This document shows positions 5,979-60,784 of a stretch of 64,000 nt of DNA, piece by piece (positions within the stretch are counted from its first letter, which is position 1; every line of letters begins with the position of its first letter). Source of the DNA: Spiribacter salinus M19-40. Lineage in GTDB: Bacteria; Pseudomonadota; Gammaproteobacteria; Nitrococcales; Nitrococcaceae. Location of the stretch: positions 1,178,001 to 1,242,000 of the forward strand of contig NC_021291.1 of NCBI RefSeq assembly GCF_000319575.2. Reading direction: 5' to 3'. The notes below the pieces were generated by a model. That model worked only from the letters and a program-made list of their open reading frames with translations. It did no database searches and was not told where the DNA came from. The position numbers were made by a program, and so were the translations under genes.

Positions 5979-6004
5979 TGAGGGGCCAACAGCGGTGTCT
6001 GGCT

Positions 6005-6013
6005 TGCTATACT
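6005..6013 (+). promoter_or_regulatory. Extended -10 promoter of yhhQ, predicted leaderless
   Basis: TGC-TATACT (6005-6013) is a near-perfect extended -10 element 8 bp before the ATG at 6022. No Shine-Dalgarno sequence is present. The reverse strand reads TATAGC and may serve the MATE gene. No clear -35. Confidence 0.5.
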
Positions 6014-6021
6014 CTGGCGCC

Positions 6022-6693
6022 ATGAAAACCGTTACCCCTCATCAATTCCGTCAGGCGCTGCTCATTCTGGCGCTCGCGCATATCGGCATCATCGCCGCCA
6101 GCAATTATCTGGTGCAGCTGCCGATTACGATTGCGGGCTTGCATACGACCTGGGGTGCGTTCTCGTTTCCATTCATTTTTCTGGCGACCGACCTCACGGT
6201 ACGCACCTTCGGCAAAGTGGCTGCCCGGCGGATTATCTTATTCGCCATGGCGCCTGCACTGCTGGTCTCCTATGGCCTGGGGAGCCTTTTTCAGCAAGGC
6301 AGCTTTCAGGGCTTAGAGTCCCTGATTGGCTTCAATACCTTCGTTGGCCGAATTGCCATGGCAAGCTTTATGGCCTATGCCCTCGGCCAGCTGCTGGACA
6401 TCCATATCTTTGATCGGCTGCGCCGTAATAACCGCTGGTGGATCGCACCGGCGGTCTCGACAGTCTTTGGCAACGCCGCCGATACGCTGGCTTTCTTTGG
6501 CCTGGCCTTTTATGCCAGCCCCGATCCGTTTATGGCGGCCAACTGGCCAGAGATCGCCCTGGTGGACTACGCCTCGAAGATCATCATCTCGCTGCTGCTG
6601 TTTCTGCCAGCCTATGGCCTGGCATTGACCTGGTTACAGCGGCATCTGCTCGGCCCTGACGGCCGGATCACACTCGAGGCAGCGCCGCGATAG
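6022..6693 (+). CDS. yhhQ: Queuosine precursor transporter, YhhQ family
   Basis: A 223-residue inner-membrane protein with about six helices, of the vitamin-uptake-like (VUT/DUF165) family. The E. coli member imports 7-cyano-7-deazaguanine (preQ0) for queuosine in tRNA. Family features seen: FPFIFLATDLTVRTFGK with the conserved charged TDL region, and PAVSTVFGNAADTLAFF. The start at 6022 is chosen over the upstream ORF start because MKTVTPHQFRQALLILA is the normal N-terminus and an extended -10 element lies just before it. No other queuosine gene is adjacent. Confidence 0.88.
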   Translation: MKTVTPHQFRQALLILALAHIGIIAASNYLVQLPITIAGLHTTWGAFSFPFIFLATDLTVRTFGKVAARRIILFAMAPALLVSYGLGSLFQQGSFQGLESLIGFNTFVGRIAMASFMAYALGQLLDIHIFDRLRRNNRWWIAPAVSTVFGNAADTLAFFGLAFYASPDPFMAANWPEIALVDYASKIIISLLLFLPAYGLALTWLQRHLLGPDGRITLEAAPR

Positions 6694-8865: not shown

Positions 8866-10173
8866 TCAGGTGGACGGCTTCCCATGCGCTGCTTGATCCC
8901 GTGCCTCAAGCTCACGGAGCCGCGCAGCGATTCGCTGCTCAAGACCACGCTCGACGGGCTGGTAATACCGCTGGCCGGCCAGCGCATCCGGCAGATATGT
9001 CTCACCCGCGGCATAGCCGTCTGGCTCGTCGTGGGCATAGCGATACGCATGCCCGTAACCCAGCTCTTTCATGAGCTTTGTCGGTGCATTGCGCAAATGC
9101 ACTGGCACCTCGAGGGAGCCATGGGCCCGGGCATCCTGCATCGCGGCGTTGAAGGCCTGATAGACGGCATTGCTCTTGGGGACGGAAGCCAGATACACAA
9201 TCGCCTGGGCAACGGCCAACTCCCCCTCGGGCGAGCCCAAGCGCTCCTGCGCCTGCCAGGCATCCATGGCAACTTGCAGGCCACGCGGATCGGCATTGCC
9301 AATATCCTCCGAGGCCATTCGTACCACCCGCCGCGCGATGTAGAGCGGATCGCACCCCCCTTCCAGCATACGGGCAAACCAGTAGAGGGCCGCGTCCGGC
9401 GCAGACCCCCGGACAGATTTGTGCAGCGCCGAGATCTGGTCGTAGAAGGCGTCTCCACCCTTGTCAAAACGTGCCCGGCCCCCCGCTGCCGCTTCGCGGA
9501 TCACGGCTTGATCAATCAGACCGGCATCACCCGCCAGATCGGCAGCAACCTCAAGCAAGCTGAGGGCCGTGCGGGCATCGCCATCGGCCAGTCGGGCGAT
9601 CGCATCACGGGGCTCGGCATTCAGCGTCAGTTGCCGACTGCCGAGCCCCCTTTCCGAATTCGCCATGGCGCGATCGAGCAGCGCGCCAATGGCCTCGGCA
9701 TCCAACGCCCGCAGCACGTACACCCGAACCCGTGACAGCAGGGCATTATTGAGCTCGAATGACGGGTTCTCAGTGGTGGCACCGATAAACAAGAGCGTGC
9801 CGTCCTCGATGTACGGCAAAAAGGCATCCTGCTGGGACTTGTTAAAGCGATGCACCTCGTCGACAAACAGCAGCGTCTGGCGACCCTGATCCCGGCTATT
9901 ACGCCCGGCGGCCGCCGCCTCCCGAATATCTTTCACGCCGGACATCACCGCCGAGAGCGTCAGAAAATCGGCATCCGCGGCGGCGGCCATCATTCGCGCC
10001 AGGGTGGTTTTGCCCGTACCTGGCGGGCCCCAGAGCACCATGGAGTGCAGCCGTCCAGCGGCAACGGCTTCACCGAGCGGGCGCCCGGCGCCGAGCAAAT
10101 GGGATTGGCCGACGAATTCCGCGACGGTCTGCGGGCGCATGCGATCAGCCAGCGGACGGGTCCAGTCCGTCAT
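8866..10173 (-). CDS. rarA: Replication-associated recombination protein RarA (MgsA)
   Basis: A 435-residue AAA+ ATPase related to clamp-loader subunits and eukaryotic WRNIP1, acting at stalled replication forks. Seen: Walker [10 protein letters not shown] near residue 49, Walker [17 protein letters not shown], sensor [12 protein letters not shown] with the arginine finger in [10 protein letters not shown], and the C-terminal tetramerisation region with [10 protein letters not shown] and [15 protein letters not shown]. Normal length. Its ATG overlaps the lolA stop by 4 bp, so the two are translationally coupled. Confidence 0.95.
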
Positions 10174-10772
10174 GACCCCTCGATCACATCCACGCCCTCT
10201 GGCGGCTCGAAACGCAGGCGCGCCTCATCAATCGACGCGTTGCGCTCAAGTTCACGAAACTGCACTTCGATCCGGTCGCCCAGGCCATCCTCAATCACAA
10301 TCTGAACAGGCACGCCAGCGTTCATTTGCAGCTGGATACGCTGGAAATCCCAGGCTGGATCGGTGGGCTGAAGTTCGACCTGGCCGGCGTCATCGCCCGC
10401 GGTGACCTGAAAGTTGTCGCGCAGATTGGCCATGTCGCCGCTCAACAACTGCGCCGCACCGGCACCCATCGCATCATCCAACGGCCGGACAACGACCTGT
10501 TCAAGATCGACGTCATGCACCCACAGACGCTTACCATCAGCGACGATGATCTGCTCATACGGTGTGCGGTAATGCCAGCGAAAGCGCTGCGAGCGCGCAA
10601 TCCAGAACGCCCCTTCAGCCTCCTCGACCAGATTGCCCGCCTCATCCCGGGTGGTTTGCACGAACGAACCAACCAGTGTGTCGGTCTGCTCGAAGTAGGC
10701 CTCCAGCTGCTCGACGTCGGCATGACCCGGCAGCGCCAGCAGCAGGAGACACAAGGCAATGAACCTGCGCAT
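10170..10772 (-). CDS. lolA: Outer-membrane lipoprotein carrier LolA
   Basis: A 200-residue periplasmic chaperone that takes lipoproteins from LolCDE to LolB at the outer membrane. The signal peptide (1 to about 18, ending LALPGHA) is followed by the LolA fold: [28 protein letters not shown] with the conserved Arg, and [18 protein letters not shown]. It sits between ftsK and rarA as in E. coli, 3 bp after the ftsK stop. Confidence 0.94.
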
Positions 10773-10775
10773 GAC

Positions 10776-13118
10776 TCAGTCCTTCGGTGGCGGTGGGGCG
10801 ATGACCTCGCGACCGCCGTTGGACTGCAGCGGCCCGACGATCCCCGCGGCTTCCATTTCTTCGACCAGCCGTGCAGCCCGGTTATAGCCGATCTTCAAAC
10901 GCCGCTGCACGCCGGAGATGGATGCCTTGCGGGTCTCGGTGACAATCCGCACGGCTTGATCATAGAGCGGATCGGCCTCGCCCCCGCCTGCATTCATGTC
11001 GCCCGCGAGCCCTGGCATTGAGCCATCCGCACCGGATTCCTCGAGGAGCCCCTCGATGTACGCCGGCTCGCCGCTCTTTTTGAGGTGTTCCGCCACCCGG
11101 TGGACCTCGGCATCGGAGACAAACGCCCCATGGACCCGCTCGGGAATGCCCCGGCTGCTCGGGCCGAGGTAGAGCATGTCACCGTGGCCCAGTAACGACT
11201 CCGCCCCCATCTGATCGAGGATGGTGCGGGAGTCGACACGGGAGGACACCTGAAAGGCCATCCGGGTAGGGATATTGGCCTTGATGAGCCCGGTAATGAC
11301 ATCCACGGAGGGGCGCTGCGTCGCCAGGATGAGGTGGATACCCGAGGCACGCGCCTTCTGGGCCAGCCGGGCGATCAGCTCTTCCACCTTCTTGCCCACC
11401 ATCATCATCATGTCGGCAAACTCATCAACCACCACGACAATGTAGGGCATCGGCTCCAGCACGGGCGCGCTCGGTGCCTCGCCGTCACCGTCGAGGGTCG
11501 GCTCGATGCGGTCATCCGGGGGTGCCCACAGGGGATCCGTCAACGGCTCACCGCGCTCGTTGGCCTCCCGGATCTTGCGATTGGCGCCAGCAATGTTGCG
11601 CACGCCCAAGCTCGCCATGAGCCGATAGCGGCGCTCCATCTCGGCAACGCACCAGCGCAGGGCATTGCCGGCCTCTTTCATGTCGGTCACCACCGGCGCG
11701 AGGAGATGCGGGATGCCGTCATACACGGAGAGCTCCAGCATCTTCGGGTCAATCATGATGGTGCGGACCTGCTCGGGGCCATTTTTGTAGAGCAGGCTGA
11801 GAATCATCGCGTTGATCCCCACCGACTTACCTGAACCCGTGGTACCGGCAACCAACAGATGCGGCATCTTGCCGAGATCCACGACCTGGGTGTATCCGCC
11901 GATGTCCTTGCCAATGGCAAGCGTTAGCGGCGAGGCATTCTGCTCGAACTCCTCCGAGCGCACGATCTCGGACAGGGCAATCACCTGGCGATGCTCGTTC
12001 GGGATCTCGAGGCCCACCACGGACTTGCCGGGAATGACCTCGACAACGCGCACCGCCGTCACCGAAAGCGCGCGGGCCAGGTCCTTGGCCAAGTTGGTGA
12101 TCTGACTGACTTTAACGCCAGCCGCTGGCTTGAGCTCAAAGCGCGTGATGACTGGGCCGGGCTGCACCGCGACCACCTCAACCTCAATACCGAAGTCGCG
12201 CAGCTTATGCTCCACCAACCGGGACATGGCCTCCAGCGCGTCCGGGGTATAACCGGGTTTTTCGGTTTTCGGCGGATCGAGTAGCGAAACCGGTGGCAGT
12301 TCACCCGGTGTTGGCGGCGTTTCAAAGAGCTGGATCTGTTGTTCCTTGCGGGCCCGCTCACCCGGTCGCGCATCAGCGGCGGGGGGCGCAATCGCCGGTT
12401 TGGGGCGCTTGCGTGCGCGCTGCTTTTCTTCCTGACGCGCGCTTTGGCGCTGCTGGCGCGCCTGGCGCGCCGCCTGAAGGTCCTGGAGCTTGTTACGGGC
12501 CAGCGTCAGATAATGCCCTTGCGCCAACACGAAGTGCCCCAGATGATCCATCAAGGCAATCCAGGACAGCCCCGTAAACAGGGTCACGCCCGCCAGAAAG
12601 ACCGACAGAGCCAGCAGCGTCGCACCAGTGAAGCTGAAAGCCTGCTCGATGCGATCACCAACCAGGTTACCCAGTACGCCGCCGGAACTCAGCGGGACGG
12701 TGCCGGCCATCGGCTCGACGTGCAGGCGCGCCAGGGCGGCGCCGGCAATCAAGGTCAGGGCAAAGCCCGCCACGCGCACGCCAACAATGCCCCAATGCAC
12801 TTTGCCGTCCCGGCGCTGCCAGCGAAACAACAGCGCGCCCAGCAAACCGATCAGTATGGGAAAGAGAAAACCGAGATAGCCGAACAGATACAAGCTGAGA
12901 TCGGCCCAGTACGCCCCGACGAGACCGCCTGCATTACTGACGCCGGCGGTTGGCCGCGCCTGACTCCAGCCCGGGTCCGCCGGGTCGTAACTCAGAAGCG
13001 CGAGCAGCATGAAACCGGCCACCGCCAGCAACAGCAAAAAGGCGGCCTCACGGAGCATCCGGCCCATTTGCTGGCTGATCGGCGCCAGGGGTTGGCGAGC
13101 TGTCGTCTTGTCTGCCAT
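10776..13118 (-). CDS. ftsK: DNA translocase FtsK
   Basis: A 780-residue septal DNA pump that clears chromosome ends and activates XerCD at dif. The N-terminal ~210 residues hold four membrane helices. A short basic/glutamine linker (to about 270) is much shorter than in E. coli FtsK (1329 residues), but usual for many other bacteria. The alpha/beta motor has Walker [13 protein letters not shown] near residue 425 and Walker [15 protein letters not shown]. The C-terminal gamma winged helix ([19 protein letters not shown]) reads KOPS. It heads the lolA-rarA-crcB-serS operon; a -10-like TACACT lies 7 bp before the ATG. Confidence 0.96.
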
Positions 13119-41800: not shown

Positions 41801-41834
41801 TTGCATATCCATACAGTACTGTATAAATTAACAG
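41801..41834. promoter_or_regulatory. Tandem LexA (SOS) boxes between relA and lexA
   Basis: CTG-TATAAATTAA-CAG (41819-41834) fits the gammaproteobacterial consensus CTG-N10-CAG with an AT-rich core. Two bases upstream, TTG-CATATCCATA-CAG (41801-41816) is a one-base-off second box. A promoter for lexA, TTGCAT (41801-41806), 17 bp and TAAATT (41824-41829), lies under both, so LexA would repress its own operon. Effects on relA are possible but not shown. Confidence 0.8.
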
Positions 41835-41859
41835 TGTCATTCACGGACCGGAGCAGGAC

Positions 41860-42480
41860 ATGCAGGGCCTCACTCCCCGCCAAGCAGAGATCCTCGAATT
41901 CATTCGGCAGTTCCTGGCGCTCACCGGCTATCCGCCTACGCGCAGCGAAATTGCCAGCGAGCTGGGCTTTCGCTCCGCCAATGCCGCCGAGCAGCACCTG
42001 CGGGCCCTGGCCCGCAAGAACGTCATTACGCTTCAACCGGGGGCCTCCCGCGGGATTCGCCTTTGCGAAGTCAGCGATACCCCAGTGGAAGCCGAAACGG
42101 GGCTGCCCGTCGTCGGGCAGGTTGCAGCAGGCAGCCCCCTGCTCGCCGAGTCGCACATCGACCGCTACTGCCAGGTCAGCAGCGGTCTGTTCTCTCCCGA
42201 TGCCGACTACCTGCTCAAGGTTCGGGGGATGAGTATGCGGGATGCCGGCATCCTTGACGGCGATCTGCTGGCTGTCCATCGGACCACCGATGTCCGGGAG
42301 GGGCAGATTGTCGTCGCTCGCATCGATAACGAAGTCACCGTCAAGCGCTTCTCCCGCGCCGGGCATCAGGTCCGACTCCTGCCGGAGAACGCTGATTTCG
42401 AGCCTATTGAACTGGATCTGCGCCATGACGAGCTCACCATCGAAGGGGTGGGCGTCGGCGTGATTCGCGATGGGCTCTGA
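41860..42480 (+). CDS. lexA: SOS repressor LexA
   Basis: A 206-residue repressor-protease. It aligns without gaps to E. coli LexA over the first 70 residues, including the recognition helix at 41-52 (here [12 protein letters not shown], with Gln replacing Glu45). A 6-residue insertion precedes the self-cleavage site Ala90-Gly91 (GQVAAGSP). The catalytic dyad is Ser125 (RGMSMRD) and Lys162 (EVTVKRF). GGAGCAGGAC lies before the ATG. It is the first gene of lexA-imuA-imuB-dnaE2, a layout often seen for second LexA copies, but the operator is of E. coli type. Confidence 0.96.
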
Positions 42481-42505
42481 GCACCAGACAATCAGGAGAA
42501 ACAAC

Positions 42506-43180
42506 ATGAATCAGGCGATTAATCAGCTGCTCGCACAGCCTGGCATCTGGCGCGCCAGCGACCGCCATCCTTCATCAGAGCCCCGCACTGGCACGCATGT
42601 ACCCAGCGGGTTTTCGGGACTGGATGCGGTACTTCCTGGCGGCGGTTTTCCCACCGGCGCATTGACCGAACTCATCCATGCCCATCATGGCATTGGTGAG
42701 TTGCAGCTGGTCATGCCCGCGCTCGCGCGACTCTCCCGGGGCGGCCGGTGGATTGCACTGATCGCTCCACCTTTTGTGCCGTACGCGCCGGCCATGGCGG
42801 CACAGGGCATTGACCTGTCCCGAGTCCTGGTCGTACATCCCGATAATGGCACGCAGGCCCTTTGGTCTATAGAGCAGGCCCTGCGCACAGGAACCTGCGC
42901 AGCGGTGCTGGCCTGGCCCAGCACCTGTGATGACCGCAGCCTGCGGCGCCTGCAGCTTGCGGCCGAAGCAGGCGACAGTCTCGGCCTGCTGTTTCGTGAA
43001 AACGCTGCCGCCAAGGTGCGTTCACCCGCCGCACTCCGGCTTGTGCTTGATCAAAGCGACCGTCAGCGCCTGGGCGTCAGCGTACTCAAATGCCGCGGCA
43101 CACCGGCTGGCGCCATCGAGCTCGACACCTGGTCCACGGCAGCGGCGGGTCAGCAAATGCCGCTAGCCATGACCCACTAA
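42506..43180 (+). CDS. imuA: Translesion synthesis accessory protein ImuA
   Basis: A 224-residue RecA-fold-like protein required with ImuB and DnaE2 for damage-induced mutagenesis. Seen: FSGLDAVLPGGGFPTGALTEL, GRWIALIAPPFVPYAPAMA and AVLAWPSTCDDRSLRRLQLAA, typical of ImuA/SulA-like proteins. The Walker A loop of RecA is missing, as is usual. The ATG at 42506 has AGGAG upstream, 25 bp after lexA. Confidence 0.9.
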   Translation: MNQAINQLLAQPGIWRASDRHPSSEPRTGTHVPSGFSGLDAVLPGGGFPTGALTELIHAHHGIGELQLVMPALARLSRGGRWIALIAPPFVPYAPAMAAQGIDLSRVLVVHPDNGTQALWSIEQALRTGTCAAVLAWPSTCDDRSLRRLQLAAEAGDSLGLLFRENAAAKVRSPAALRLVLDQSDRQRLGVSVLKCRGTPAGAIELDTWSTAAAGQQMPLAMTH

Positions 43181-43206
43181 ACCGGGCTCTGAGCGGATGC
43201 GTCACC

Positions 43207-44637
43207 ATGCTCTGGTTATGTCTTCACTTTCGCCACCTACCAATGGAAGCGCTGAGTGGTGCCGAGCCAGCGGATTACCCCATCGTGATCACCGAGGCCG
43301 GCCGAATCATGAGGCGCAATCGTCTGGCTCGACAGGACGGCATTCACGATGGCATGTCAGTGGCAGCGGCTCGGGCAATGACCATCGGGTTGCGAGAGTG
43401 GGCGCATTGCCCGGATCGCGAGCGTCGCATGCTCGAGCAACTCGCTACCTGGGCCGGTCAATTCACCTCCCGCGTCAGTGTGCTCGCGCCGCGGTCGCTG
43501 CTGTTGGAAATCGGGGCCAGTCTTCATTATTTCGGTGGCCTCGAACCGCTTCGCCAGCGCCTTCATGATGCGCTCACTACCCTCGGCCACCAGGCTGCGC
43601 CGGGCATTGCGCCAACACCGACGGCGGCATGGCTGCTGGCCCGACATGGCGACACAACGCCCATCACCGACGCCTCCGCGCTTGCCGATCGGCTAGCCTC
43701 TCTGCCCGTTACCCGACTTGATCTGCCAGCGCGTATCCAGAAAGCGCTGAAAGGGTTGGGCTGCCAAACCATTGGGGATCTCCGGGCCATGCCACGGGAT
43801 GGCCTTCGCCGCCGCCTGGGCCAGGCGCTACTCGAGACCCTGCAGCGGGCCCATGGCGAGCGCGCCGACCCACGCATGGACTGGAAGCCTCCAGCGCAGT
43901 TTCGAGCACGCATTGAACTGCCTGCCGAGACCACCGACAGGCAACAACTGCAACCTGGCTTCAGCCATCTGGTGGATGCGCTATGCGGGCACTTACAACG
44001 CCTGGATGCCGGCATCACGCGTCTGCACTTCCGACTCCACCACAACGATCGGCCCGCGACACCGCTGCGCGTGGGCATCATGACGCCGAGTCGTGACAGG
44101 GAACGCTTGATGGCACTGCTCGAACAGCAACTGGCGCAGTGCCAGCTCACAACCGGCGCACAAGCCATCAGCCTGAAGGCCGGTCGCCTGCAACCGCTCA
44201 CTGGACAGAGCCAGGACCTGCTGGGAGATGCGACCGAAAACAACACCGCAGCGGCCTGGCAGCGACTGGTCGAAGACCTGGACAACCGCCTGGGACAAGG
44301 TCGGGTGCGGGCACTGTCAGTGCGTGAGGAACACCGACCAGAGCACGCATGGCAATACGCCGAACCGGGCCAGGGGCGTGGCAATGGCGGTCAGACACCG
44401 CGACCAACTTGGCTATTGCCCCAGCCAGCAGTCCTGGAAAGTCATGATGGCCGCCCTCACTATCATGGCCGCCTCATCCTCGAGCATGGACCTGAGCGCA
44501 TCGAATCCGGGTGGTGGGATGGCCAGGACGTCAGCCGCGATTATTACCTGGCTGCCAGCCCGACCGGTGAGCGGCTATGGATTTTCCGCGAGCGTCGTGG
44601 CGCACGCGGCTGGTACCTGCATGGCCTTTTTGCCTGA
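43207..44637 (+). CDS. imuB: Y-family pseudo-polymerase ImuB
   Basis: A 476-residue adaptor related to DNA polymerase IV. The N-terminus MLWLCLHFRHLPMEAL keeps the fold but lacks the catalytic Asp of Y-family enzymes, as in known ImuB. The central part has the helix-hairpin-helix region (ALKGLGCQTIGDLRAMPRDGL). TGQSQDLLGD near residue 375 fits a degenerate beta-clamp motif. The C-terminus (GERLWIFRERRGARGWYLHG) is the usual ImuB end. I start at 43207; the longer frame lies over imuA. It should link DnaE2 to the clamp. Confidence 0.92.
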   Translation: MLWLCLHFRHLPMEALSGAEPADYPIVITEAGRIMRRNRLARQDGIHDGMSVAAARAMTIGLREWAHCPDRERRMLEQLATWAGQFTSRVSVLAPRSLLLEIGASLHYFGGLEPLRQRLHDALTTLGHQAAPGIAPTPTAAWLLARHGDTTPITDASALADRLASLPVTRLDLPARIQKALKGLGCQTIGDLRAMPRDGLRRRLGQALLETLQRAHGERADPRMDWKPPAQFRARIELPAETTDRQQLQPGFSHLVDALCGHLQRLDAGITRLHFRLHHNDRPATPLRVGIMTPSRDRERLMALLEQQLAQCQLTTGAQAISLKAGRLQPLTGQSQDLLGDATENNTAAAWQRLVEDLDNRLGQGRVRALSVREEHRPEHAWQYAEPGQGRGNGGQTPRPTWLLPQPAVLESHDGRPHYHGRLILEHGPERIESGWWDGQDVSRDYYLAASPTGERLWIFRERRGARGWYLHGLFA

Positions 44638-51453: not shown

Positions 51454-53265
51454 ATGTCAACATCCCCGCATTCATGGCGGCAATACCTTGGGGTTTTCCG
51501 CTATAGCCGTCGAGCCATTGAGCTCGTCTGGCAAACGAGCCGCGCACTCACGTTCATACTGGCCATCGCAACGCTCGTGGCCGGCCTGCTCCCTGCCGCT
51601 GCCGCGTGGGTCGGTCAGCTCATCGTCGATGGTGTCGTGGCCGCGATCGAGGCCGATGCCGGCATCCCCGAGCGGCTGTTGTGGCTCGTCGCCCTGGAGG
51701 GGGGAATCATCGCGGGCATCGCCGGTGGCCAGCGCGCGATCCAGACCGTGCAGTCCCTGTTGCGCGCGCAGCTCGGCCAGCGCGTTAACGTCATGATTCT
51801 TGAAAAAGCGCAGACGCTGCAGCTTGCAGACTTCGAAGACTCGGAGTTCTACGACAAGCTCACACGCGCCCGTCGCGAGGCCTCAAGCCGCCCTCTCAGC
51901 CTCGTTAACCGAACTTTCGGTCTCATCCAGAATGGCCTGTCACTTGCCAGCTTTGCCGGCCTCCTGTTTGCGTTTTCGCCCTGGGCGGTCGCCATCCTCG
52001 TGCTCGCCGGGCTCCCGCAATTCTTCTCCGAGGCCAAGTTCTCCGGCGATGCCTTTCGGCTCTTTCGCTGGCGCAGTCCTGACACCCGTCAGCAGATGTA
52101 CCTCGAGACAGTCCTTGCTCGAGAGGACAGCGCCAAGGAGGTCAAGCTCTTTCAACTCGGTCCGCTGCTGCTGCAGCGCTATCGCGACATCTTCGAACGA
52201 CTCTATCGCGAGGACCGAAGCCTGACACTGCGCCGAGATTTGTGGGGCTTTGGCCTGGGGTTGATTGCGACGCTGGCGTTTTACGCCACCTATGCGTGGA
52301 TTGTGATGAGCACCGTGGCCGGTGCGATCACGCTCGGGCAGATGACGATGTATCTGGCCGTATTCCGCCAGGGCCAGAGCGCTGTCAGCGCCAGTCTCAC
52401 GGCCATTAGCGGCATGTACGAGGACAACCTCTACCTGTCCAACCTGTATGAATACCTGGAACAGCCGGTGAGCACCGGAACCGGGGAGGCCACCACCGGT
52501 GCCATCCCTAATGATGGCCTACGCTTTGAGGGCGTTAGCTTTCGCTATCCTGGCAGTGAGCAATTCGCGCTCGAGTCGATCGACCTTCACCTGGCCCCGG
52601 GCCAGACCCTCGCCCTTGTCGGCGCAAATGGCTCAGGTAAAACCACGCTGATCAAGCTACTGGCAGGTCTCTACACCCCTTCCGCAGGGTGTATCCGACT
52701 GGATGGCACGGATCTTCGCGATTGGGATAGCACCACGCTGCGCCAGCGGATCGGAATCATTTTCCAGGACTTCATGCGCTACCAGCTCCCCGTTGGCGAG
52801 AACATCGGTGCCGGCGACGTCACCCACTTTCAGGACGAAGCGCGCTGGCAACAGGCCGCCCGCCAGGGTCTGGCTGATGCCTTCATTGAAGAGATCCCGG
52901 GTGGCTACCACGCCCAGCTGGGACGCTGGTTCAAGGATGGCCGCGAACTGTCCGGCGGACAGTGGCAAAAAATCGCTGTGGCGCGGGCGTTCATGCGTGA
53001 GGAGGCCGACGTGCTTGTACTCGACGAGCCGACAGCTGCCATGGACGCGGCGGCAGAGGCGGAGATCTTCGCCCATTTCCGCGAGCTGACCCGAGACCGC
53101 ATGGCCATCCTGATCTCCCACCGTTTCTCGACCGTGCGCATGGCCGATGAAATCGCCGTCATCGATGGCGGGCGCATTATTGAGCGGGGCAGTCATGACA
53201 GCCTGCTAGCCCGAGAGGGCCAGTATGCCCATCTGTTCCAACTACAGGCGGCGGGCTACCAGTGA
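51454..53265 (+). CDS. ABC exporter, fused permease and ATPase
   Basis: A 603-residue half-transporter with about six N-terminal membrane helices (to residue ~330) and an ATPase domain: Walker A VGANGSGKTTLIKLLAGLY near 390, Q-loop IIFQDFMRYQLPVGENIGAGD, signature LSGGQWQKIAVARAFM near 499, Walker B VLVLDEPTAAMD and H-loop ILISHRFSTVRMAD. The membrane part (QTLQLADFEDSEFYDKLTRA) resembles ABCB-like exporters seen in peptide/antibiotic export, but no substrate can be named. The stop overlaps the tmcA start (GTGA). Confidence 0.88.
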   Translation: MSTSPHSWRQYLGVFRYSRRAIELVWQTSRALTFILAIATLVAGLLPAAAAWVGQLIVDGVVAAIEADAGIPERLLWLVALEGGIIAGIAGGQRAIQTVQSLLRAQLGQRVNVMILEKAQTLQLADFEDSEFYDKLTRARREASSRPLSLVNRTFGLIQNGLSLASFAGLLFAFSPWAVAILVLAGLPQFFSEAKFSGDAFRLFRWRSPDTRQQMYLETVLAREDSAKEVKLFQLGPLLLQRYRDIFERLYREDRSLTLRRDLWGFGLGLIATLAFYATYAWIVMSTVAGAITLGQMTMYLAVFRQGQSAVSASLTAISGMYEDNLYLSNLYEYLEQPVSTGTGEATTGAIPNDGLRFEGVSFRYPGSEQFALESIDLHLAPGQTLALVGANGSGKTTLIKLLAGLYTPSAGCIRLDGTDLRDWDSTTLRQRIGIIFQDFMRYQLPVGENIGAGDVTHFQDEARWQQAARQGLADAFIEEIPGGYHAQLGRWFKDGRELSGGQWQKIAVARAFMREEADVLVLDEPTAAMDAAAEAEIFAHFRELTRDRMAILISHRFSTVRMADEIAVIDGGRIIERGSHDSLLAREGQYAHLFQLQAAGYQ

Positions 53266-55274
53266 GCCCAACGGCATGCCGTGAACTGATCTGGGTCACT
53301 GGTGCGGCAGCGGCCACCCGGGCCCACGCCGAGGCCTGTCTGCGGGCCCAGCATCAACAGCCGGTCGGCTGGATTGGCACCCCCTCATCGCCCTGGCCAC
53401 CAGCCTGGTCGGTGGTGCCCACCGGGCAGGGCCGCCAGCTCCTCGGGCGAACCCTGACGGCCGGTGTACTGGATGCCCATGCCGGTTTTGATCCGGATGA
53501 CTTTGGCGCCCTCAGCGGCACCATCAGCGGCGGCGGTGCCCTCATCTTGCTGAGCCCACCGGCTGAGGCGTGGCCGGAACAGCCTGACCCCGCCCTTCAG
53601 CCCCTGCTCACCCATGGCCTCACCCTGACCGATTTCCAGGGCCATTTCCTGGCCCGACTGATCCGGCTCCTGAATGACGATCCGGCGGTCACGCACGTTG
53701 ATGTTGCAACGGCCAACCGGCACCCACGCGCCTTAACTCCACCGTCAACCGCTCAGCCGGTCACCACACACGATCAACAGACCGCCATCGCCGCGATCAC
53801 CGCATTAGCCGAGCCCCCCCTGCCGGCCACGCTGCTGATTACGGCCGATCGCGGTCGGGGCAAATCCGCTGCGCTTGGATTGGCGGCCCAGGCCCTGTGC
53901 GATCCGAGCGTGCGATTAACCGGGCCATCCCGGGCCGCCGTGGAACGCGTGATTGCGCATGCCGGATCAGCTGCGCCCCGTTTCACCGCCCCTGAACGCG
54001 TGACAGCCGACGACGGACTGCTCATGGTCGACGAGGCCGCCGCTCTCCCCCTCGGGCTGCTCGCCCAACGCGTTAGAGAAAACCCCCGGTGTGTGCTGAC
54101 CGGCACGGTGCATGGTTATGAGGGCAGCGGCCACGGCTTGACGCTGCGCCTGGCTCGGATCCTGGAGGACGCCGGATGCCCGCTTCAGCGGCTGCATCTA
54201 ACCGAACCGATCCGTTGGCCGCTCAACGACCCGCTCGAGGCACTCACGGATCGCATCCTCCTGCTCAGTGCTGAACCCCAACCCACCGACTCGCGCACTG
54301 CCCGGGCCACCGTGACCGTCGAGCCCATGGCGGCCGAGGCGCTAGCGGGCAACGAGACGGATCTGCACGATGCCTTCGGGCTACTGGTGGCCGGGCACTA
54401 TCAAACCCGACCGCGGGATTGCCGCCAGCTCCTGGATGACCCAGCCATGCAGATCGTCGTCGCGCGCGCGGGCCGGCAGATCATTGGCATCGCGGCAGCC
54501 CGCCCGGAAGGGGGGCTGGACGCTGATCTGGCTGAAGCGGTTTACCTTGGCAGACGCCGGCCAGCAGGTCATTTAATCGCTCAATCTCTGACGTTTCACG
54601 CCGGCATCAGGGAAGCGGCCAGGCAATCGGGGCTGCGTATCCAGCGGATCGCCGTACACCCTGATTGGCAGCGCCAGCGGGTCGGTCAAGCACTCGTGGA
54701 CGCCCTGGCGAACACAGCCAGTGAGAGCGGGTGTGACTGGTTGGGGACAAGCTTTGCCGCCAGCCCAGCGCTCATCGATTTCTGGCGAGCCTGTCGACTG
54801 GACGTTGCGCGGGTCGGTAATCGACGCGATCCCCGCAGCGCCAGTCACGCCGTCATTATGCTGCGGGCACTCAGCGCGGCGGGGACGTCGTTGATCACCC
54901 AGGCGCGGCAGCGTGTCGCCGTGCACCTGCCCGATCAGCGCCAGCACGCCCTCTGCGACCTGCCCACGCCGCTCTTTGAGCGGCTATCCAGACACCTGCC
55001 GCCCCACCCACCAACAGAATCCGTCGATCAAGCCGATCTGCGCGCCTTTGCCTATGGTTACCGTGCATTACTGGACAGCCACGGCGCACTGGCGCGACGG
55101 GCGCAGGGCGTCGACAATGGGTGGTCGCCTTTAGACGATGCCCTGCTGGCGACGGCCATTCGCGCGCCTCAGGACAGCGCGGCGCTTGCGAGCGCGGCAG
55201 GCGTGACGGGCCGTCGCGAGGCACTCGCCCGCCTGCGATGCATCGCGCAACAATTGCTGGAGAGTGATCCATGA
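53262..55274 (+). CDS. tmcA: tRNA(Met) cytidine acetyltransferase TmcA
   Basis: A 670-residue enzyme forming N4-acetylcytidine at the wobble base of elongator tRNA-Met, using ATP and acetyl-CoA. Order: N-terminal domain, helicase-like ATPase with Walker A TADRGRGKS (194-202) and Walker B LLMVDEAAALPLGLL, GNAT domain with RIAVHPDWQRQRVGQALVDAL and DWLGTSFAASPALIDFW, then a C-terminal tRNA-binding part. Start is GTG, in a 4-bp overlap with the exporter gene; the end overlaps the UvrA gene by 4 bp (ATGA). Confidence 0.93.
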   Translation: MSPTACRELIWVTGAAAATRAHAEACLRAQHQQPVGWIGTPSSPWPPAWSVVPTGQGRQLLGRTLTAGVLDAHAGFDPDDFGALSGTISGGGALILLSPPAEAWPEQPDPALQPLLTHGLTLTDFQGHFLARLIRLLNDDPAVTHVDVATANRHPRALTPPSTAQPVTTHDQQTAIAAITALAEPPLPATLLITADRGRGKSAALGLAAQALCDPSVRLTGPSRAAVERVIAHAGSAAPRFTAPERVTADDGLLMVDEAAALPLGLLAQRVRENPRCVLTGTVHGYEGSGHGLTLRLARILEDAGCPLQRLHLTEPIRWPLNDPLEALTDRILLLSAEPQPTDSRTARATVTVEPMAAEALAGNETDLHDAFGLLVAGHYQTRPRDCRQLLDDPAMQIVVARAGRQIIGIAAARPEGGLDADLAEAVYLGRRRPAGHLIAQSLTFHAGIREAARQSGLRIQRIAVHPDWQRQRVGQALVDALANTASESGCDWLGTSFAASPALIDFWRACRLDVARVGNRRDPRSASHAVIMLRALSAAGTSLITQARQRVAVHLPDQRQHALCDLPTPLFERLSRHLPPHPPTESVDQADLRAFAYGYRALLDSHGALARRAQGVDNGWSPLDDALLATAIRAPQDSAALASAAGVTGRREALARLRCIAQQLLESDP

Positions 55275-58200
55275 GTGACGAGGTCATCCGCATCCGCGGA
55301 GCCCGCCAGAACAACCTGCGCAACCTGGACCTGGACCTGCCGACCGGCGAGTTCACCGTGATTACCGGTGTATCCGGATCCGGCAAGTCATCACTGGCTT
55401 TCGACACGTTGTATGCCGAGGGGCAGCGCCGCTACGTCGAGACATTCTCGCCCTATGCCCGGCAGTTTCTGGACCGTATGGACCGCCCTGCCACCGATCG
55501 CGTGGAGGGGATTCCACCAGCGATCGCCATTGATCAGACCAACCCGGTGCGCACCTCACGCTCCACCGTGGGCACGATGACCGAGCTCAACGACCATCTG
55601 AAATTGCTCTTTGCCCGGGCTGCCCGTTTGTACTGCGGTGGCTGTGGTCGGCAGGTCACGCGAGACACCGCAGACGGCATCTTTGAGCGCCTGCAAGGCC
55701 GGTGCGAAGGCAAGCGCGTGCTCATCGCCTTTGATGTGGCCATCCCGACCCAGTACGAGGCCGCAGAGATTCGCGCACTGCTTGAGCGCCAGGGCTATAC
55801 GCGCATCGAAGACAGCCCCAATGGCGGGCTGCGGGTGATTCAGGATCGCGTGCGCCTCACCGCCGAGCGCCGTGATCGCATCATCGAGGCGCTCGAAGCG
55901 GCATTCACCCATGGCCGCGGCCGCCTGGTGGTGGTCGAGCTCGATGACCAGCGGGCGCCCGTGGTCACCCATCGTTTCTCGAGCGATCTCCACTGCCCGG
56001 ACTGCGACCGCCATTATCAGGAGCCCACGCCCAGCCTGTTTTCCTTTAACTCACCGATTGGCGCCTGCGAGACCTGCCGCGGCTTCGGCCGGGTCATGGG
56101 CATCGATTATGGGTTGGTCATACCCGACCCGCGGCTTAGCCTGCGCGACGGAGCCATCCGGCCCTGGCAGTCCGGCAAATCCGCTGAATGCCAGAAAGAC
56201 CTCCTCCGTCATGCGCGCCGCCAGGGCGTGGCCGTCGATATCGCCTGGGAAGATCTGCCCGAGGCCGATCGGCGCTGGGTACTGGAAGGCGACGGGAAAC
56301 GCCGGGATGACTGGTACGGCGTCCAGGGCTTCTTCGACTGGCTCGAGGCCAAGAGCTACAAGATGCATGTCCGGGTCCTGCTCTCCAAATATCGCAGCTA
56401 CGACCTCTGCCCTGATTGTGAGGGCGCACGCTTAAAGCCCGAGGCCCTGCTCTGGCGCCTGGGAGGGCATGCGGAAGCCGCGGCAGCGCTGCCCACGGAC
56501 CAACGGCATCGCCCCCGAGGCACCACAGTGTCAGAGGAGGCGTTCCAGGGCCTGCCCGGGTTGTGTGTCTACGACCTGATGACGCTGCCGCTTGATCGCA
56601 CCGCGCGCTTTTTTGCCGATGTTGCCTTGCCTGCGCCAATGGATGACGCCGTCCCGGTGCTCATGGAGGCCATCGGCAGTCGGCTGGGGTTTCTTGAACA
56701 GGTCGGCGTGGGCTACCTCACTCTGGACCGCCAGTCCCGCACGCTCTCGGGCGGGGAAGTCCAGCGCATCAATCTGACCACGGCCCTCGGGACATCACTG
56801 GTCAATACGCTTTTTGTACTGGATGAACCCAGTATCGGCCTGCATCCGCGGGATATCGGTCGGATCACCGGCGTTATGCAGCGCCTGCGGGATGCCGGCA
56901 ACACGCTGGTCGTGGTGGAGCACGATCCGGACATCATGCAGGCGGCCGAGCGCATCCTGGATATCGGCCCCGGGCCCGGCCGGGCCGGCGGCGACATCGT
57001 GTTCAATGGCACGCCAGCGGCACTGCGCGCCGACCAGACCTCCCTGACCGGGGCGTATCTGCGCGGCAGCCAGACCGTGGCCGCCCAAGACCGGACACCG
57101 CGTGGTGAGCCCGAGACCTGGCTCGAGATTCGGGGCGCCCGAGAACACAATTTGCAGGGCATCGACATCCGCCTGCCCCTGCATCGCCTGGTCTGTCTGA
57201 CGGGTGTATCGGGTTCCGGCAAGTCCACGTTGCTGGAGACCGTGCTGTACCGAGCCTTGCGAAAACAACTCGGCGAGGCGGTCGATCCACCCGGCGCCCA
57301 CGATGCGCTGCTGGGCGCTGAGACCATCGATGAGGTGGTCATGGTGGATCAATCAGCCATCGGCCGGACCACGCGCTCAAACCCGGCGAGCTACGTTGGC
57401 GCCTTCGACCCCATTCGCAAGGCCTTCGCGCGTGAACCGCTGGCGAAGGAGCGGGGCTACACGGCTGGCACATTCAGTTTTAATGCGGGCAATGGCCGCT
57501 GCCAGGCCTGCGGCGGTAACGGTTTTGAACACGTGGAGATGCAGTTTCTCTCCGATGTCTACTTGCGCTGCCCGACCTGTGATGGCCGGCGCTTCCGCGA
57601 CAGTGTCCTTGAGGTCCGCTTGCCGCCGGCTCACGACCTGGCGCGCGGCCCGGCCTCCATCGCCGATTGTCTTGAGATGACGGTGGATGAGGCGACCGCC
57701 TTCTTTGCCGATTACCCGGAAATCCTCCGCGGCCTCGAGCCCCTTGTCGCTGTGGGCTTGGGCTACATGCAGCTTGGTCAGCCTGTCCCGACGCTATCGG
57801 GGGGCGAGGCGCAGCGCCTCAAACTCGCCGGGCATCTGGCAAAGGCGGGCCGACGCCGCGGCGGCCACAAACTATTCTTGTTTGATGAACCCACCACCGG
57901 TCTGCATTTCGCGGACATCAGCGTGCTGCTCACCGCCCTCGAACGTCTGATTGCCAACGGCCATTCCGTCATCCTGATCGAGCATAACCTCGACGTCATG
58001 CTGGCCTCGGACTGGCTCGTCGATCTTGGCCCCGAGGGCGGCGATGCCGGGGGTCAGCGCCTGGCTGAAGGCCCACCCAGTGCCGTCATGGCCAGTGAGG
58101 CCAGCCACACGGGGGCCGCCCTGAAGCGCTATCGGGCCAGTCGCGATCACGGCACCCCCTCCGCGCTCGCCGTGGCCGATGCACCAGCCACAGCGCCAGC

Positions 58201-60784
58201 GCCAGCGCCAGCGCGAGAGCGCGCTATCCGGGTACGCAACGCCAGGGAGCACAACCTCAAGGGCATTGATGTACGCATCCCCGAACAGGGCATGACGGTA
58301 ATCACGGGGCTGTCAGGCTCGGGCAAAAGCACCGTGGCCTTTGACATTCTATTCAACGAAGGCCAGCGCCGTTATCTGGAATCGTTGAACGCCTACGCCC
58401 GGCAGTTCATGCAGCCCGCTGCCCGACCCGATGTCGATGCCGTCTACGGCATTCCGCCGACCGTTGCGATTGAACAGCGGACCAGTCGTGGCGGACACAA
58501 AAGTACTGTGGCGACGTTGACCGAACTTCACCACTTCTTGCGCCTGCTGTTCGTCAAGCTTGGCACTCAGTACTGCCCGGACTGCGATCGTCCCATCAGC
58601 GAGCAAAGCCGCGAGGCGATTGCGGCCCACCTGCTGGAACACCATCGCGGCGAGCCCATTACCCTGCTGGCGCCGCTGGTGATTGCCCGTAAGGGCTACT
58701 ACACCGATCTGGCGCAGTGGGCCGCCGGGAAAGGATTTGATGTCCTGCGGGTAGACGGCACCGATCGGCCCACCGACGAGTGGCCTCGGCTTGATCGCTA
58801 CCAGGAACACGACATCGATCTGCCGGTGGCCACACTCACGCCAGACCCGACGCAAGAGGCCGTGCTTGAAGACGCCCTGGATCGGGCCCTTGGCTATGGC
58901 CGCGGTCAGCTCCGCGTCGCAGCGCCAGATGGCACGAACCCCCTCTACTCCACCGAACGCGCCTGCCCGGGCTGCGCGCGAAGCTTTGCTGAACTGGATC
59001 CCCGGCTTTTCTCGTACAACACCCGCCATGGCTGGTGCCCGCGCTGTTTCGGCACGGGTGTTGTCCTCGCGGGCTTCGATGAGGAACAGACCGGTGAGGA
59101 ACGGCAGTGGCGGGCGGATGAGGACGAGCATCCGGTGACCTGCCCAGCCTGTGGCGGTCACCGATTAAGGCCCGAAGCCCTTGCCGTGCGGTTTATGGAT
59201 CGCGGGATCGCCGATTACGGGCAGTTTTCCATTCGCGAGGCCCGCGCGTTCTTTGATGACATGCGTCTGTCGGGCCGCGAGGCCGAAGTCGCCCGAGACA
59301 TCCTGAGCGAGCTGCGAAGCCGCCTGGGCTTCCTCTCCTCCGTGGGGCTCGATTACCTCACGCTGGATCGCGCCGCGCCCACGCTCTCCGGCGGTGAGGC
59401 GCAACGCATCCGACTCGCCGCACAACTCGGTTCAAATCTGCAGGGGGTGTGCTACATCCTGGACGAGCCCACGATTGGCCTGCACGCCCGGGATAATCGC
59501 ATGCTGCTCGACACCCTCGGCGCGCTGGAGCGCAAGGGCAACACGCTGGTCGTTGTCGAGCATGACGAGGACACCATTCGGCGTGCCGATCATGTCATCG
59601 ATCTCGGCCCCGGCGCCGGCGTGCGCGGTGGGCGGATCGTTGCCGAAGGCCAGCTACCCGCGCTGCTGGACAACCCCGATTCGGTCACCGGTCGCGCCCT
59701 GGCCCACCCGATGCCACATCCGCTGCGCGGTGAGCGCCGCGATCCGCATGCGGAACCCGTGCTGGTCATTGAGGGCGCCTCGGCCAACAACCTCAAAGAC
59801 CTGAATGCGCACATCCCACTGGGGCGCCTGACGGTCGTCAGCGGCGTCTCCGGTTCCGGCAAGAGCACGCTGATCCGTGAGGTCCTGCACGGCAACCTGC
59901 GCCAGCAACTCAACCGTCACGCAGACCCGAATCGGGCTGCCACGGGCTGTCGCAAGCTCGTCGGCCACGCGGGCCTGGATCGGGTGCTTGAAGTTGATCA
60001 GACCCCGATTGGCAAAACGCCGCGCTCGTGTCCGGCAACCTACGTGGGCATTTATGATGATATCCGCCGCTTGTTCGCGCAGACCGAGGAGGCGCGCATT
60101 CGCGGCTATGGCCCCGGGCGCTTCTCGTTCAACACACGCGAAGGCCGCTGCCCGGAATGCGAGGGCCAGGGCATGCGACGCATTGAAATGAACTTTCTAC
60201 CGGATGTCACCGTTCCCTGTGAAAGCTGTCGCGGTCAGCGCTTCACGCCAGAGACGCTGGCAGTCACCTGGCGTGGCCGCTCCATTGGCGAGGTACTCGA
60301 CATGGACATCGAAACGGCCGTCACGTTTTTTGAGGCCCATTCGAAGCTGCATCATGCGCTCGGGCTCCTACGCGACACCGGCCTGGGGTATCTGACCCTT
60401 GGGCAACCCAGTCCAACGCTCTCCGGTGGCGAGGCCCAACGGATCAAACTGGTCAGCGAGCTGGCGAAAGCACGGCCCGATACCGGGCGTGGTCGCCAGC
60501 CGCGAACGCTGTATATTCTCGATGAGCCCACCGTGGGTCTGCATATCGCCGATGTCGAACGCTTGATCGCCGTGCTACACCGCCTCGCGGACGCAGGCCA
60601 TAGCGTGGTGGTGATCGAGCACAATCTGGATGTGCTGACCGAAGCCGACTGGCTCATCGACCTCGGCCCGGAAGGCGGTGCCGATGGCGGACAGATTGTC
60701 GCTCAGGGCACCCCCGAGCAGGTAAGCCGCAACCCGGATTCCCACAGCGGCCGCATGCTGTCGGAATTTCTGGATGACCATTGA
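55271..60784 (+). CDS. uvrA: Double-length UvrA (tandem UvrA fusion)
   Basis: A single 1837-residue frame, about twice a normal UvrA (~940). It contains two complete UvrA units, hence four ABC ATPase sites. Unit 1 (1 to ~960): Walker A GVSGSGKSS at 33-41 and GVSGSGKST near 644; signatures LSGGEVQRINL near 491 and LSGGEAQRLKL near 841; zinc modules HCPDCDRHYQEPTPSLFSFN and RCQACGGNGFEHVEM. A Pro/Ala linker (ATAPAPAPARERA, ~975) follows. Unit 2: Walker A near 1013 and 1524; signatures near 1371 and 1717; zinc modules ACPGCARSFAELDPRLFSYN and RCPECEGQGMRRIEMNFLPD. All motifs look intact. Such fused UvrAs occur in scattered bacteria; whether this is the main repair UvrA or an extra copy cannot be told here. 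Confidence 0.95.
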   Translation: MSDEVIRIRGARQNNLRNLDLDLPTGEFTVITGVSGSGKSSLAFDTLYAEGQRRYVETFSPYARQFLDRMDRPATDRVEGIPPAIAIDQTNPVRTSRSTVGTMTELNDHLKLLFARAARLYCGGCGRQVTRDTADGIFERLQGRCEGKRVLIAFDVAIPTQYEAAEIRALLERQGYTRIEDSPNGGLRVIQDRVRLTAERRDRIIEALEAAFTHGRGRLVVVELDDQRAPVVTHRFSSDLHCPDCDRHYQEPTPSLFSFNSPIGACETCRGFGRVMGIDYGLVIPDPRLSLRDGAIRPWQSGKSAECQKDLLRHARRQGVAVDIAWEDLPEADRRWVLEGDGKRRDDWYGVQGFFDWLEAKSYKMHVRVLLSKYRSYDLCPDCEGARLKPEALLWRLGGHAEAAAALPTDQRHRPRGTTVSEEAFQGLPGLCVYDLMTLPLDRTARFFADVALPAPMDDAVPVLMEAIGSRLGFLEQVGVGYLTLDRQSRTLSGGEVQRINLTTALGTSLVNTLFVLDEPSIGLHPRDIGRITGVMQRLRDAGNTLVVVEHDPDIMQAAERILDIGPGPGRAGGDIVFNGTPAALRADQTSLTGAYLRGSQTVAAQDRTPRGEPETWLEIRGAREHNLQGIDIRLPLHRLVCLTGVSGSGKSTLLETVLYRALRKQLGEAVDPPGAHDALLGAETIDEVVMVDQSAIGRTTRSNPASYVGAFDPIRKAFAREPLAKERGYTAGTFSFNAGNGRCQACGGNGFEHVEMQFLSDVYLRCPTCDGRRFRDSVLEVRLPPAHDLARGPASIADCLEMTVDEATAFFADYPEILRGLEPLVAVGLGYMQLGQPVPTLSGGEAQRLKLAGHLAKAGRRRGGHKLFLFDEPTTGLHFADISVLLTALERLIANGHSVILIEHNLDVMLASDWLVDLGPEGGDAGGQRLAEGPPSAVMASEASHTGAALKRYRASRDHGTPSALAVADAPATAPAPAPARERAIRVRNAREHNLKGIDVRIPEQGMTVITGLSGSGKSTVAFDILFNEGQRRYLESLNAYARQFMQPAARPDVDAVYGIPPTVAIEQRTSRGGHKSTVATLTELHHFLRLLFVKLGTQYCPDCDRPISEQSREAIAAHLLEHHRGEPITLLAPLVIARKGYYTDLAQWAAGKGFDVLRVDGTDRPTDEWPRLDRYQEHDIDLPVATLTPDPTQEAVLEDALDRALGYGRGQLRVAAPDGTNPLYSTERACPGCARSFAELDPRLFSYNTRHGWCPRCFGTGVVLAGFDEEQTGEERQWRADEDEHPVTCPACGGHRLRPEALAVRFMDRGIADYGQFSIREARAFFDDMRLSGREAEVARDILSELRSRLGFLSSVGLDYLTLDRAAPTLSGGEAQRIRLAAQLGSNLQGVCYILDEPTIGLHARDNRMLLDTLGALERKGNTLVVVEHDEDTIRRADHVIDLGPGAGVRGGRIVAEGQLPALLDNPDSVTGRALAHPMPHPLRGERRDPHAEPVLVIEGASANNLKDLNAHIPLGRLTVVSGVSGSGKSTLIREVLHGNLRQQLNRHADPNRAATGCRKLVGHAGLDRVLEVDQTPIGKTPRSCPATYVGIYDDIRRLFAQTEEARIRGYGPGRFSFNTREGRCPECEGQGMRRIEMNFLPDVTVPCESCRGQRFTPETLAVTWRGRSIGEVLDMDIETAVTFFEAHSKLHHALGLLRDTGLGYLTLGQPSPTLSGGEAQRIKLVSELAKARPDTGRGRQPRTLYILDEPTVGLHIADVERLIAVLHRLADAGHSVVVIEHNLDVLTEADWLIDLGPEGGADGGQIVAQGTPEQVSRNPDSHSGRMLSEFLDDH
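58191..58214 (+). repeat. Four tandem CAGCGC hexamers in the UvrA inter-unit linker
   Basis: CAGCGC is repeated four times in a row and encodes the Pro-Ala linker between the two UvrA units. A hexamer keeps frame when copy number changes, so linker length can vary by slippage without breaking the gene. Confidence 0.85.

Follow-up and report, generated by a model that had tools for sequence, protein, structure and literature searches.

The described proteins closest to the one reported here are the canonical class I UvrA, typified by that of E. coli, the class II UvrAs together with Ecm16 and DrrC, and the long “excinuclease ABC subunit A” proteins of the NF001885/PRK00635 model. Members of that model are presumably the chlamydial tandem UvrAs. 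For the ordinary UvrA dimer, the choice between UvrA2B1 and UvrA2B2 as working sensor is still argued, as is the way in which the damaged strand is selected (PMC3025350, PMC7835731, PMC7616783). The symmetry of that dimer makes the stoichiometry and strand question hard to test because both protomers carry the same mutation. In one study, R216A E222A is the UvrB-surface mutant of E. coli UvrA, R712, R722, R724 and R730 are the DNA-binding arginines, and deletion of the insertion domain has effects that differ between published assays (PMC3025350). As marks of a class I UvrA we took two complete ABC ATPase sites per unit and, in every unit, an insertion domain and UvrB-docking residues; as the mark of a class II UvrA we took the absence of the UvrB-binding domain. 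Docking was scored at R176, D205, R206, R216 and E222 of E. coli UvrA, of which R176 and R206 are, we assume from the UvrA-UvrB structure, UvrB contacts.

Here we analysed a 64,000-nucleotide stretch (the window) of the genome of Spiribacter salinus M19-40, which is 1.74 Mb long, a single contig and 100% complete. One frame in the window encodes two UvrA units on a single chain (Table 1), and we compared it with its relatives and with the canonical UvrAs of the same genomes.

Sequence sets

Residue counts were made on 130 unit pairs, of which 129 are fused and one is split (locus L166, discussed below). They came from 34 of 39 genus or class loci, 66 of 80 named loci (L166 included) and all 30 Verrucomicrobiota loci; loci were dropped where no stored frame of more than 1650 aa held both units. 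The 130 pairs hold 128 distinct unit 1 rows, and two of the loci, L030 and L137, are probably one genome. The canonical set consists of 47 UvrAs taken from tandem-bearing genomes, with E. coli UvrA as the sole outside reference. A smaller alignment of tandem relatives has 33 rows.

Table 1. Features of the tandem uvrA locus, with positions in the window.
Feature	Position	Strand	Residues and remarks
ABC exporter	51454..53265	+	scores under the cut-offs of all 25 NCBIfam families shown; its end overlaps the start of tmcA
tmcA-like gene	53262..55274	+	Pfam TmcA_N and NAT10_TcmA_helicase; below NCBIfam NF041296 cut-off
Tandem uvrA gene	55271..60784	+	1837 aa; full length kept in relatives
Unit 1	55271..58135	+	residues 1-955; UvrA that has the insertion domain and in which the UvrB-docking residues are conserved
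Walker A 1	55367..55390	+	residues 33-40
Unit 1 UvrB-interaction domain	55646..55993	+	residues 126-241; docking residues R178, D192, R193, R203, E209
Unit 1 insertion domain	56078..56407	+	110 residues between C269 and C380; Pfam UvrA_DNA-bind at residues 279-347
Signature 1	56744..56767	+	residue 492; LSGGEVQR, identical in 31/33 aligned sequences
Walker A 2	57203..57226	+	residues 645-652
Signature 2	57794..57817	+	LSGGE at residue 842
Linker, Ala/Pro-rich	58136..58219	+	about residues 956-983
Unit 2	58220..60781	+	residues 984-1837; UvrA without insertion domain
Walker A 3	58307..58330	+	residues 1013-1020
Unit 2 UvrB-interaction domain	58586..58963	+	residues 1106-1231; Pfam UvrA_inter at 1112-1219
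RKG motif	58688..58696	+	residues 1140-1142; whole motif in 130/130 unit 2 rows and 0 unit 1 rows
Unit 2 insertion-domain remnant	59048..59140	+	31 residues between C1259 and C1291
Signature 3	59384..59407	+	LSGGE at residue 1372
Walker A 4	59843..59866	+	residues 1525-1532
Signature 4	60419..60442	+	LSGGE at residue 1717

Distribution of the tandem gene

All 14 genomes of the genus, the source genome counted, match the tandem gene, and 12 of them hold a frame of at least 1783 aa; the matches of the other two (G007 and G009) run into contig ends. In a sample of the class, 37 of 274 genomes, again counting the source genome, match at E ≤ 1e-190, and a frame of at least 1795 aa is present in 28 of the 37. 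A scan of genome contigs gave at least 588 relatives among at least 592 stretches. The best 80 of these were kept, and they come from Gamma- and Betaproteobacteria, from records labelled only Proteobacteria or bacterium, and from MAGs labelled Desulfuromonadales, Geobacter, Nitrospinota, Spirochaetes and Verrucomicrobia. The phylum to which the Verrucomicrobia MAG belongs is called Verrucomicrobiota here after the title of that record; of 194 genomes from it, 64 match at E ≤ 1e-185, a limit which, like that of 1e-190 used for the class, is strict enough to miss divergent tandem copies. In 55 of the 64 the frame is 1818 to 2134 aa long; among the remaining nine matches, several look like single UvrAs. 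At three MAG loci (L134, L174 and L121) the tandem frame is broken or oddly arranged.

The gene is also found on plasmids. Mycetohabitans rhizoxinica pBRH01 (5928 bases) and Burkholderia pyrrocinia pBPJTT (5904 bases) both have it annotated as a single CDS with the name “excinuclease ABC subunit UvrA”. Since both records file it as a plain uvrA, gene lists may confuse the tandem gene with the true uvrA. In a plasmid collection the stretch of unit 1 around the insertion domain matches 135 records, 72 of them predicted to be conjugative. Many of these matches are from Enterobacter, Klebsiella and Citrobacter; the best 10 of the 135 are all from Cupriavidus or Mycetohabitans, and the others may be other kinds of UvrA. 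In a phage collection 30 records match the unit 2 stretch, with 36.6-39.7% identity in the ten listed, and some of the 30 may be bacterial contigs filed as phages.

Two diverged UvrA units on one chain

The original prediction of a single uninterrupted frame of 1837 residues, with two UvrA units joined by a Pro/Ala linker, was borne out: the frame runs from ATG to TGA, and an Ala/Pro-rich stretch separates the units. Across 33 aligned sequences the span matching residues 955-985 varies from 17 to 44 residues. The whole protein scores as a UvrA against NF001503 (1999.2 bits, cut-off 1147) and TIGR00630 (1944.3 bits, cut-off 729.8). Units 1 and 2 share 41.0% identity over 832 aligned residues, and are respectively 43.8% and 48.3% identical to E. 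coli UvrA. AF2 models of the units, each folded alone, gave a pLDDT of 88 for unit 1 and 86 for unit 2, and the best crystal matches were UvrA structures in both cases (2r6f and 3uwx, respectively).

Alignment to E. coli UvrA accounts for every domain in unit 1 and for all except the insertion domain in unit 2, so that the description of the chain as two full UvrA units has to be given up. The cysteines that bound the insertion-domain segments in Table 1 lie between the Zn2 pairs. The span corresponding to E. coli residues 285-403 has a median of 119 residues (116-122) in the 47 canonical UvrAs and 105 residues (100-115) in the 130 unit 1 rows, and a median of 27 residues (12-76) in the 130 unit 2 rows. 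It is no longer than 49 residues in 129 of these 130, locus L171 being the outlier. Pfam UvrA_DNA-bind matches unit 1 in all 33 rows of the smaller alignment and is absent for unit 2 among the best 25 of 30 families. Thus the insertion domain that a class I UvrA has in every unit has been lost from unit 2. Neither unit shows any change at its Zn2 and Zn3 cysteines over the same 33 relatives, and every Zn1 cysteine is present in 31 or more of them.

The four ABC sites that had been predicted to be intact are conserved across the 130 pairs with few exceptions, and each unit has Walker A, signature and Walker B at both of its sites, as expected of a class I UvrA. Walker A lysines are present at both sites in all 130 unit 2 rows; in unit 1 they are present in all 130 rows at the second site and in 125 at the first, where the other five rows are four with a gap and one that is cut. 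Signatures 1 to 4 are kept in 130, 130, 126 and 128 rows, and the H-loop in 126 to 130. The Walker B motifs lie at residues 517, 871, 1397 and 1750, and the catalytic Glu was found, where examined, in every row with a letter at that position. At the fourth site the Asp just before the catalytic Glu is replaced by Glu in 26 of the 30 Verrucomicrobiota rows. We considered whether the fourth Walker B had been lost in those 26 rows and rejected this, the catalytic Glu being present in all 127 rows with a letter there.

The units differ more in what surrounds these sites. Of the published DNA-binding arginines, R712, R722, R724 and R730 are found in 130, 116, 111 and 123 of the 130 unit 2 rows; in unit 1 the first three are found in 130, 50 and 114 rows and R730 in about 1%. 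Directly after signature I, R496, A498 and Q500 are gone from unit 1 and present in unit 2. In the canonical set 359 positions show conservation of 95% or more; both units keep 212 of them, unit 1 alone 34, unit 2 alone 36 and neither unit 31, with 46 falling elsewhere.

Genomic context and regulation

The tandem gene had been placed in an operon with an exporter and tmcA. The arrangement is real, the TGA of the tmcA-like gene overlapping the ATG of the tandem uvrA (ATGA), and it says little about function since the tmcA neighbour is confined to the genus. There tmcA adjoins the tandem gene at all nine loci searched; it is beside it at none of 109 loci from outside the genus, many of which have short flanks. 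When ORFs within 5 kb were clustered, no family recurred at more than 8 of the 80 named loci, of which 57 have at least 3 kb upstream and 61 at least 3 kb downstream. We therefore rejected the idea of a partner operon. Nor did the 5 kb flanks of the 80 named loci contain neighbours pointing to repair. On Mycetohabitans rhizoxinica pBRH01 the tandem uvrA adjoins a non-ribosomal peptide synthetase gene (L271 8042-10900).

The prediction that no LexA box precedes the operon was correct, and the window supplies a control. Its lexA gene (41860-42480; TIGR00498, 235 bits) is preceded by a perfect CTGT-N8-ACAG box at 41819-41834, which ends 25 bases before the lexA ATG, and from its sequence a LexA box of the E. 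coli type seems to be in use at this gene. From that box to position 52096, inside the exporter gene, there is no site with one mismatch or fewer. The whole genome has seven CTGT-N8-ACAG sites and twelve of the reversed pattern, and most of the seven may be due to chance. The canonical uvrA likewise shows no box with at most one mismatch in its 4611-base locus, including about 285 bases upstream, and so the lack of a LexA box does not set the tandem gene apart. We also noted that lexA with its box is followed by imuA (NF033429) and an IMS-domain gene resembling imuB, forming a cassette of the lexA-imuA-imuB type at 41819-44637.

UvrB-docking residues are kept mostly in unit 1

The UvrB-interaction domain is present in both units, so the absence that marks class II UvrA does not apply to either, and the docking residues that a class I UvrA has in every unit are found in unit 1 only. 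Those of unit 1 listed in Table 1 correspond in order to E. coli R176, D205, R206, R216 and E222. In unit 2 the same positions are occupied by V1158, A1187, T1188, V1198 and D1204, while the fold and the RKG/DG/H face are retained. Each of the five residues is present in all 47 canonical UvrAs, in 121, 118, 124, 123 and 104 of the 130 unit 1 rows, and in 13, 2, 13, 6 and 27 of the 130 unit 2 rows when these are aligned apart. R158, K159, G160, D180 and H198 are present in all 130 unit 2 rows. Aligning the canonical UvrAs with one unit at a time leads to the same result, one of the 130 unit 1 rows being too short, and the AF2 model of unit 2 (strand 196-206 and helix 210-226) supports the residue register at the docking positions.

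The contrast is also clear within individual pairs. Both R206 and R216 are in unit 1 and neither is in unit 2 in 111 of the 130 pairs, and the reverse was never seen (0/130). Among the 19 pairs that depart from this strict pattern, unit 2 retains one of the two residues in 10, unit 1 has Ala at R216 in three (L030, L040 and L137), unit 1 lacks one or both in four from Verrucomicrobiota, and unit 1 is gapped at these positions in the remaining two. Sixteen positions of the domain reach 95% conservation or more among the canonical UvrAs. Unit 1 alone keeps R176, D205, R206, R216 and E222, and unit 2 alone keeps L151, G160, R178, G181 and H198; two are kept in both units, three in neither, and one is mixed.

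Pfam scores alone give the opposite impression, since UvrA_inter matches unit 2 in 33 of 33 rows (best 2.1e-28) and unit 1 in 23 of 33 (best 1e-8). On that basis we first took unit 2 to be the UvrB binder, a reading dropped after the residue-level counts. We prefer unit 1 as the UvrB dock despite its weaker match because we gave contact residues more weight than the score of the fold.

The docking residues bear on whether the protein uses UvrB at all. Ecm16 works without UvrB and requires its insertion domain (PMC10192343). As a protector of the DrrC/Ecm16 kind, the tandem protein would bind DNA that carries an intercalator or bulky ligand and use ATP to strip this off, independently of UvrB. 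The exporter in line with the tandem uvrA in the source genome and the peptide synthetase gene beside it on the Mycetohabitans rhizoxinica plasmid would suit such a UvrB-independent protector, yet neither an exporter nor a biosynthesis gene is a recurrent neighbour. Moreover, neither the UvrB-binding domain nor Zn1 is present in Ecm16 and the class II UvrAs (PMC5128194, PMC10192343), whereas both tandem units keep the UvrB-interaction domain, most rows keep Zn1, and the docking residues of unit 1 persist in 80-95% of the 130 rows. We consider this explanation unlikely.

The strict conservation of R158, K159, G160, D180 and H198 and the uniform UvrA_inter match in unit 2 could also mean that this unit docks a UvrB (or Mfd) of its own through a changed interface, the RKG/DG/H198 face, and that the protein is a repair sensor holding two UvrBs. 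However, R216 and E222, the pair altered in the E. coli UvrB-surface mutant (PMC3025350), are rare in unit 2, and the source genome encodes only one UvrB over the family cut-off, with no changed partner evident. A second UvrB dock on unit 2 thus seems quite improbable to us.

Canonical UvrA in the same genomes and origin of the tandem form

The original prediction had allowed that the tandem gene might encode the main repair protein, depending on whether the genome has a separate uvrA of about 940 residues. It does: a frame of about 950 aa shares 67.4% identity with the E. coli protein. When E. coli UvrA was the query (E ≤ 1e-250), canonical copies turned up in 48 of the 49 other tandem-matching genomes, contig ends cutting a few of the copies short, and the sole exception is a genome that is 58% complete. 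Canonical uvrA is likewise present in 16 of 16 genomes from which named loci come. We rejected a role of the tandem protein as the main UvrA of the cell because the same genome encodes the canonical one. Achromobacter marplatensis (L257) has, besides its canonical and tandem genes, a third UvrA-like frame of 859 aa (G293:C56:235513-237603) with a very long tree branch.

We placed both units in a quick IQ-TREE with standard UvrAs, as the original prediction had proposed, using 70 rows that combined a hand-picked core with a random draw (26 unit 1, 26 unit 2, 17 canonical, among them E. coli, and one class II). Three groups result, one each for unit 1, unit 2 and canonical UvrA (SH-aLRT 100, 99 and 99), with three changes, the minimum; the tree is unrooted, its class II row is long-branched, the composition of several rows is unusual, and long rows make a quick tree less safe. 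Six divergent Verrucomicrobiota rows are set apart in both unit groups, and they are the same six. Because each unit forms its own group, the sequences fit one old duplication and fusion, in line with the earlier view that the halves are diverged and not recently duplicated. Purifying selection acts on the two units, within the genus, at a level near that of canonical uvrA (median pN/pS 0.228 for unit 1 and 0.219 for unit 2, 45 pairs each, and 0.190 for canonical uvrA, 28 pairs).

At L166, in a Verrucomicrobia MAG, the single split pair consists of two frames about 3 kb apart, 3714-6614 for unit 1 and 9845-12355 for unit 2, with three other-strand ORFs between them and a partial copy of the start of unit 2 just upstream of the second frame. 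We considered whether this is the ancestral state and rejected it, given that partial copy and the nesting of the L166 units inside the tandem groups; we take it as a later split or rearrangement.

The tree also bears on how the units pair. The linker is short, in view of the spans given above, and canonical UvrA accompanies the tandem form in all but one of the genomes counted above; both would suit tandem chains that pair between molecules or with canonical UvrA in higher-order assemblies, the linker being a mere tether. Against this, both unit groups arise once and with the same main split, and the complementary losses fit units that evolved as mutual partners, making such pairing very unlikely. 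As for an assembly artefact, which the original prediction had named as the outcome that would overturn it and which matches in all 14 genus genomes rule out, or a recent duplication, we found no point in favour and give them practically no credence in view of the long frames in the class and in Verrucomicrobiota, the single CDS in two complete plasmids and the divergence of the halves.

A proposed one-sided UvrA in a single chain

On balance we favour, with some reserve, reading the tandem protein as an asymmetric UvrA pseudo-dimer made of a single chain, which has one insertion domain and a single UvrB dock and would serve as an accessory sensor in repair, loading UvrB from one side. The halves would probably fold head to head on each other, like the protomers of an ordinary UvrA dimer, which would unite four ATPase sites in a single chain. 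Different surfaces were lost from the two halves after what was probably a single old duplication and fusion: unit 1 retained the insertion domain, for DNA contact and damage discrimination, and the UvrB-docking face, and unit 2 lost both and retained another face of the same UvrB-interaction domain, RKG/DG/H198, and the full set of DNA-binding arginines of signature domain II. Damage would then be recognised in one fixed orientation, and one UvrB, the ordinary cellular one, would be handed over from one side, giving UvrA2B1 by construction. The simplest reading is that each molecule would have one composite UvrB site, possibly formed by the UvrB-interaction domain of unit 1 with signature II of unit 2, the half with intact arginines. 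We infer that pairing is intramolecular, that one UvrB is bound per molecule and that the protein works in repair, presumably as an accessory nucleotide-excision-repair sensor alongside canonical UvrA. The original prediction of a built-in heterodimer with specialised units accordingly stands as far as the complementary losses in the 130 pairs go, and fails in so far as unit 2 is not a full UvrA.

The tandem form suggests duplication followed by complementary loss inside one domain. More broadly, and tentatively, it may represent a widespread class of single-chain UvrA in which the halves split the work of one dimer and in which damage recognition and UvrB loading are obligately one-sided, that is, a natural UvrA2B1 machine that fixes which strand gets UvrB. 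As a covalent pair with one insertion domain and, judged by residues, one UvrB dock, it allows each half to be changed alone.

Comparison with described UvrA proteins

A search of the open-access literature found no recognised description of a tandem UvrA or of its asymmetry, and the tandem UvrA is apparently unstudied. The long NF001885/PRK00635 proteins are of similar length and are also of the UvrA type. However, against that model (1809 positions) the tandem protein scores 1110.1 bits and five Verrucomicrobiota tandems score 1047-1210, all far below the cut-off of 3054. Like class II UvrA (D. radiodurans UvrA2) and Ecm16/DrrC, the tandem protein is a second UvrA in its genome and keeps an insertion domain, in unit 1. 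Unlike those proteins, which are without the UvrB-binding domain (PMC5128194, PMC10192343), it has this domain in both units. It resembles canonical class I UvrA (E. coli; TIGR00630, NF001503) in that each half has two ABC cassettes, the UvrB-interaction domain and the Zn modules, and differs from it in having two units per chain, a single insertion domain and docking residues in one unit, and in being extra to a canonical copy.
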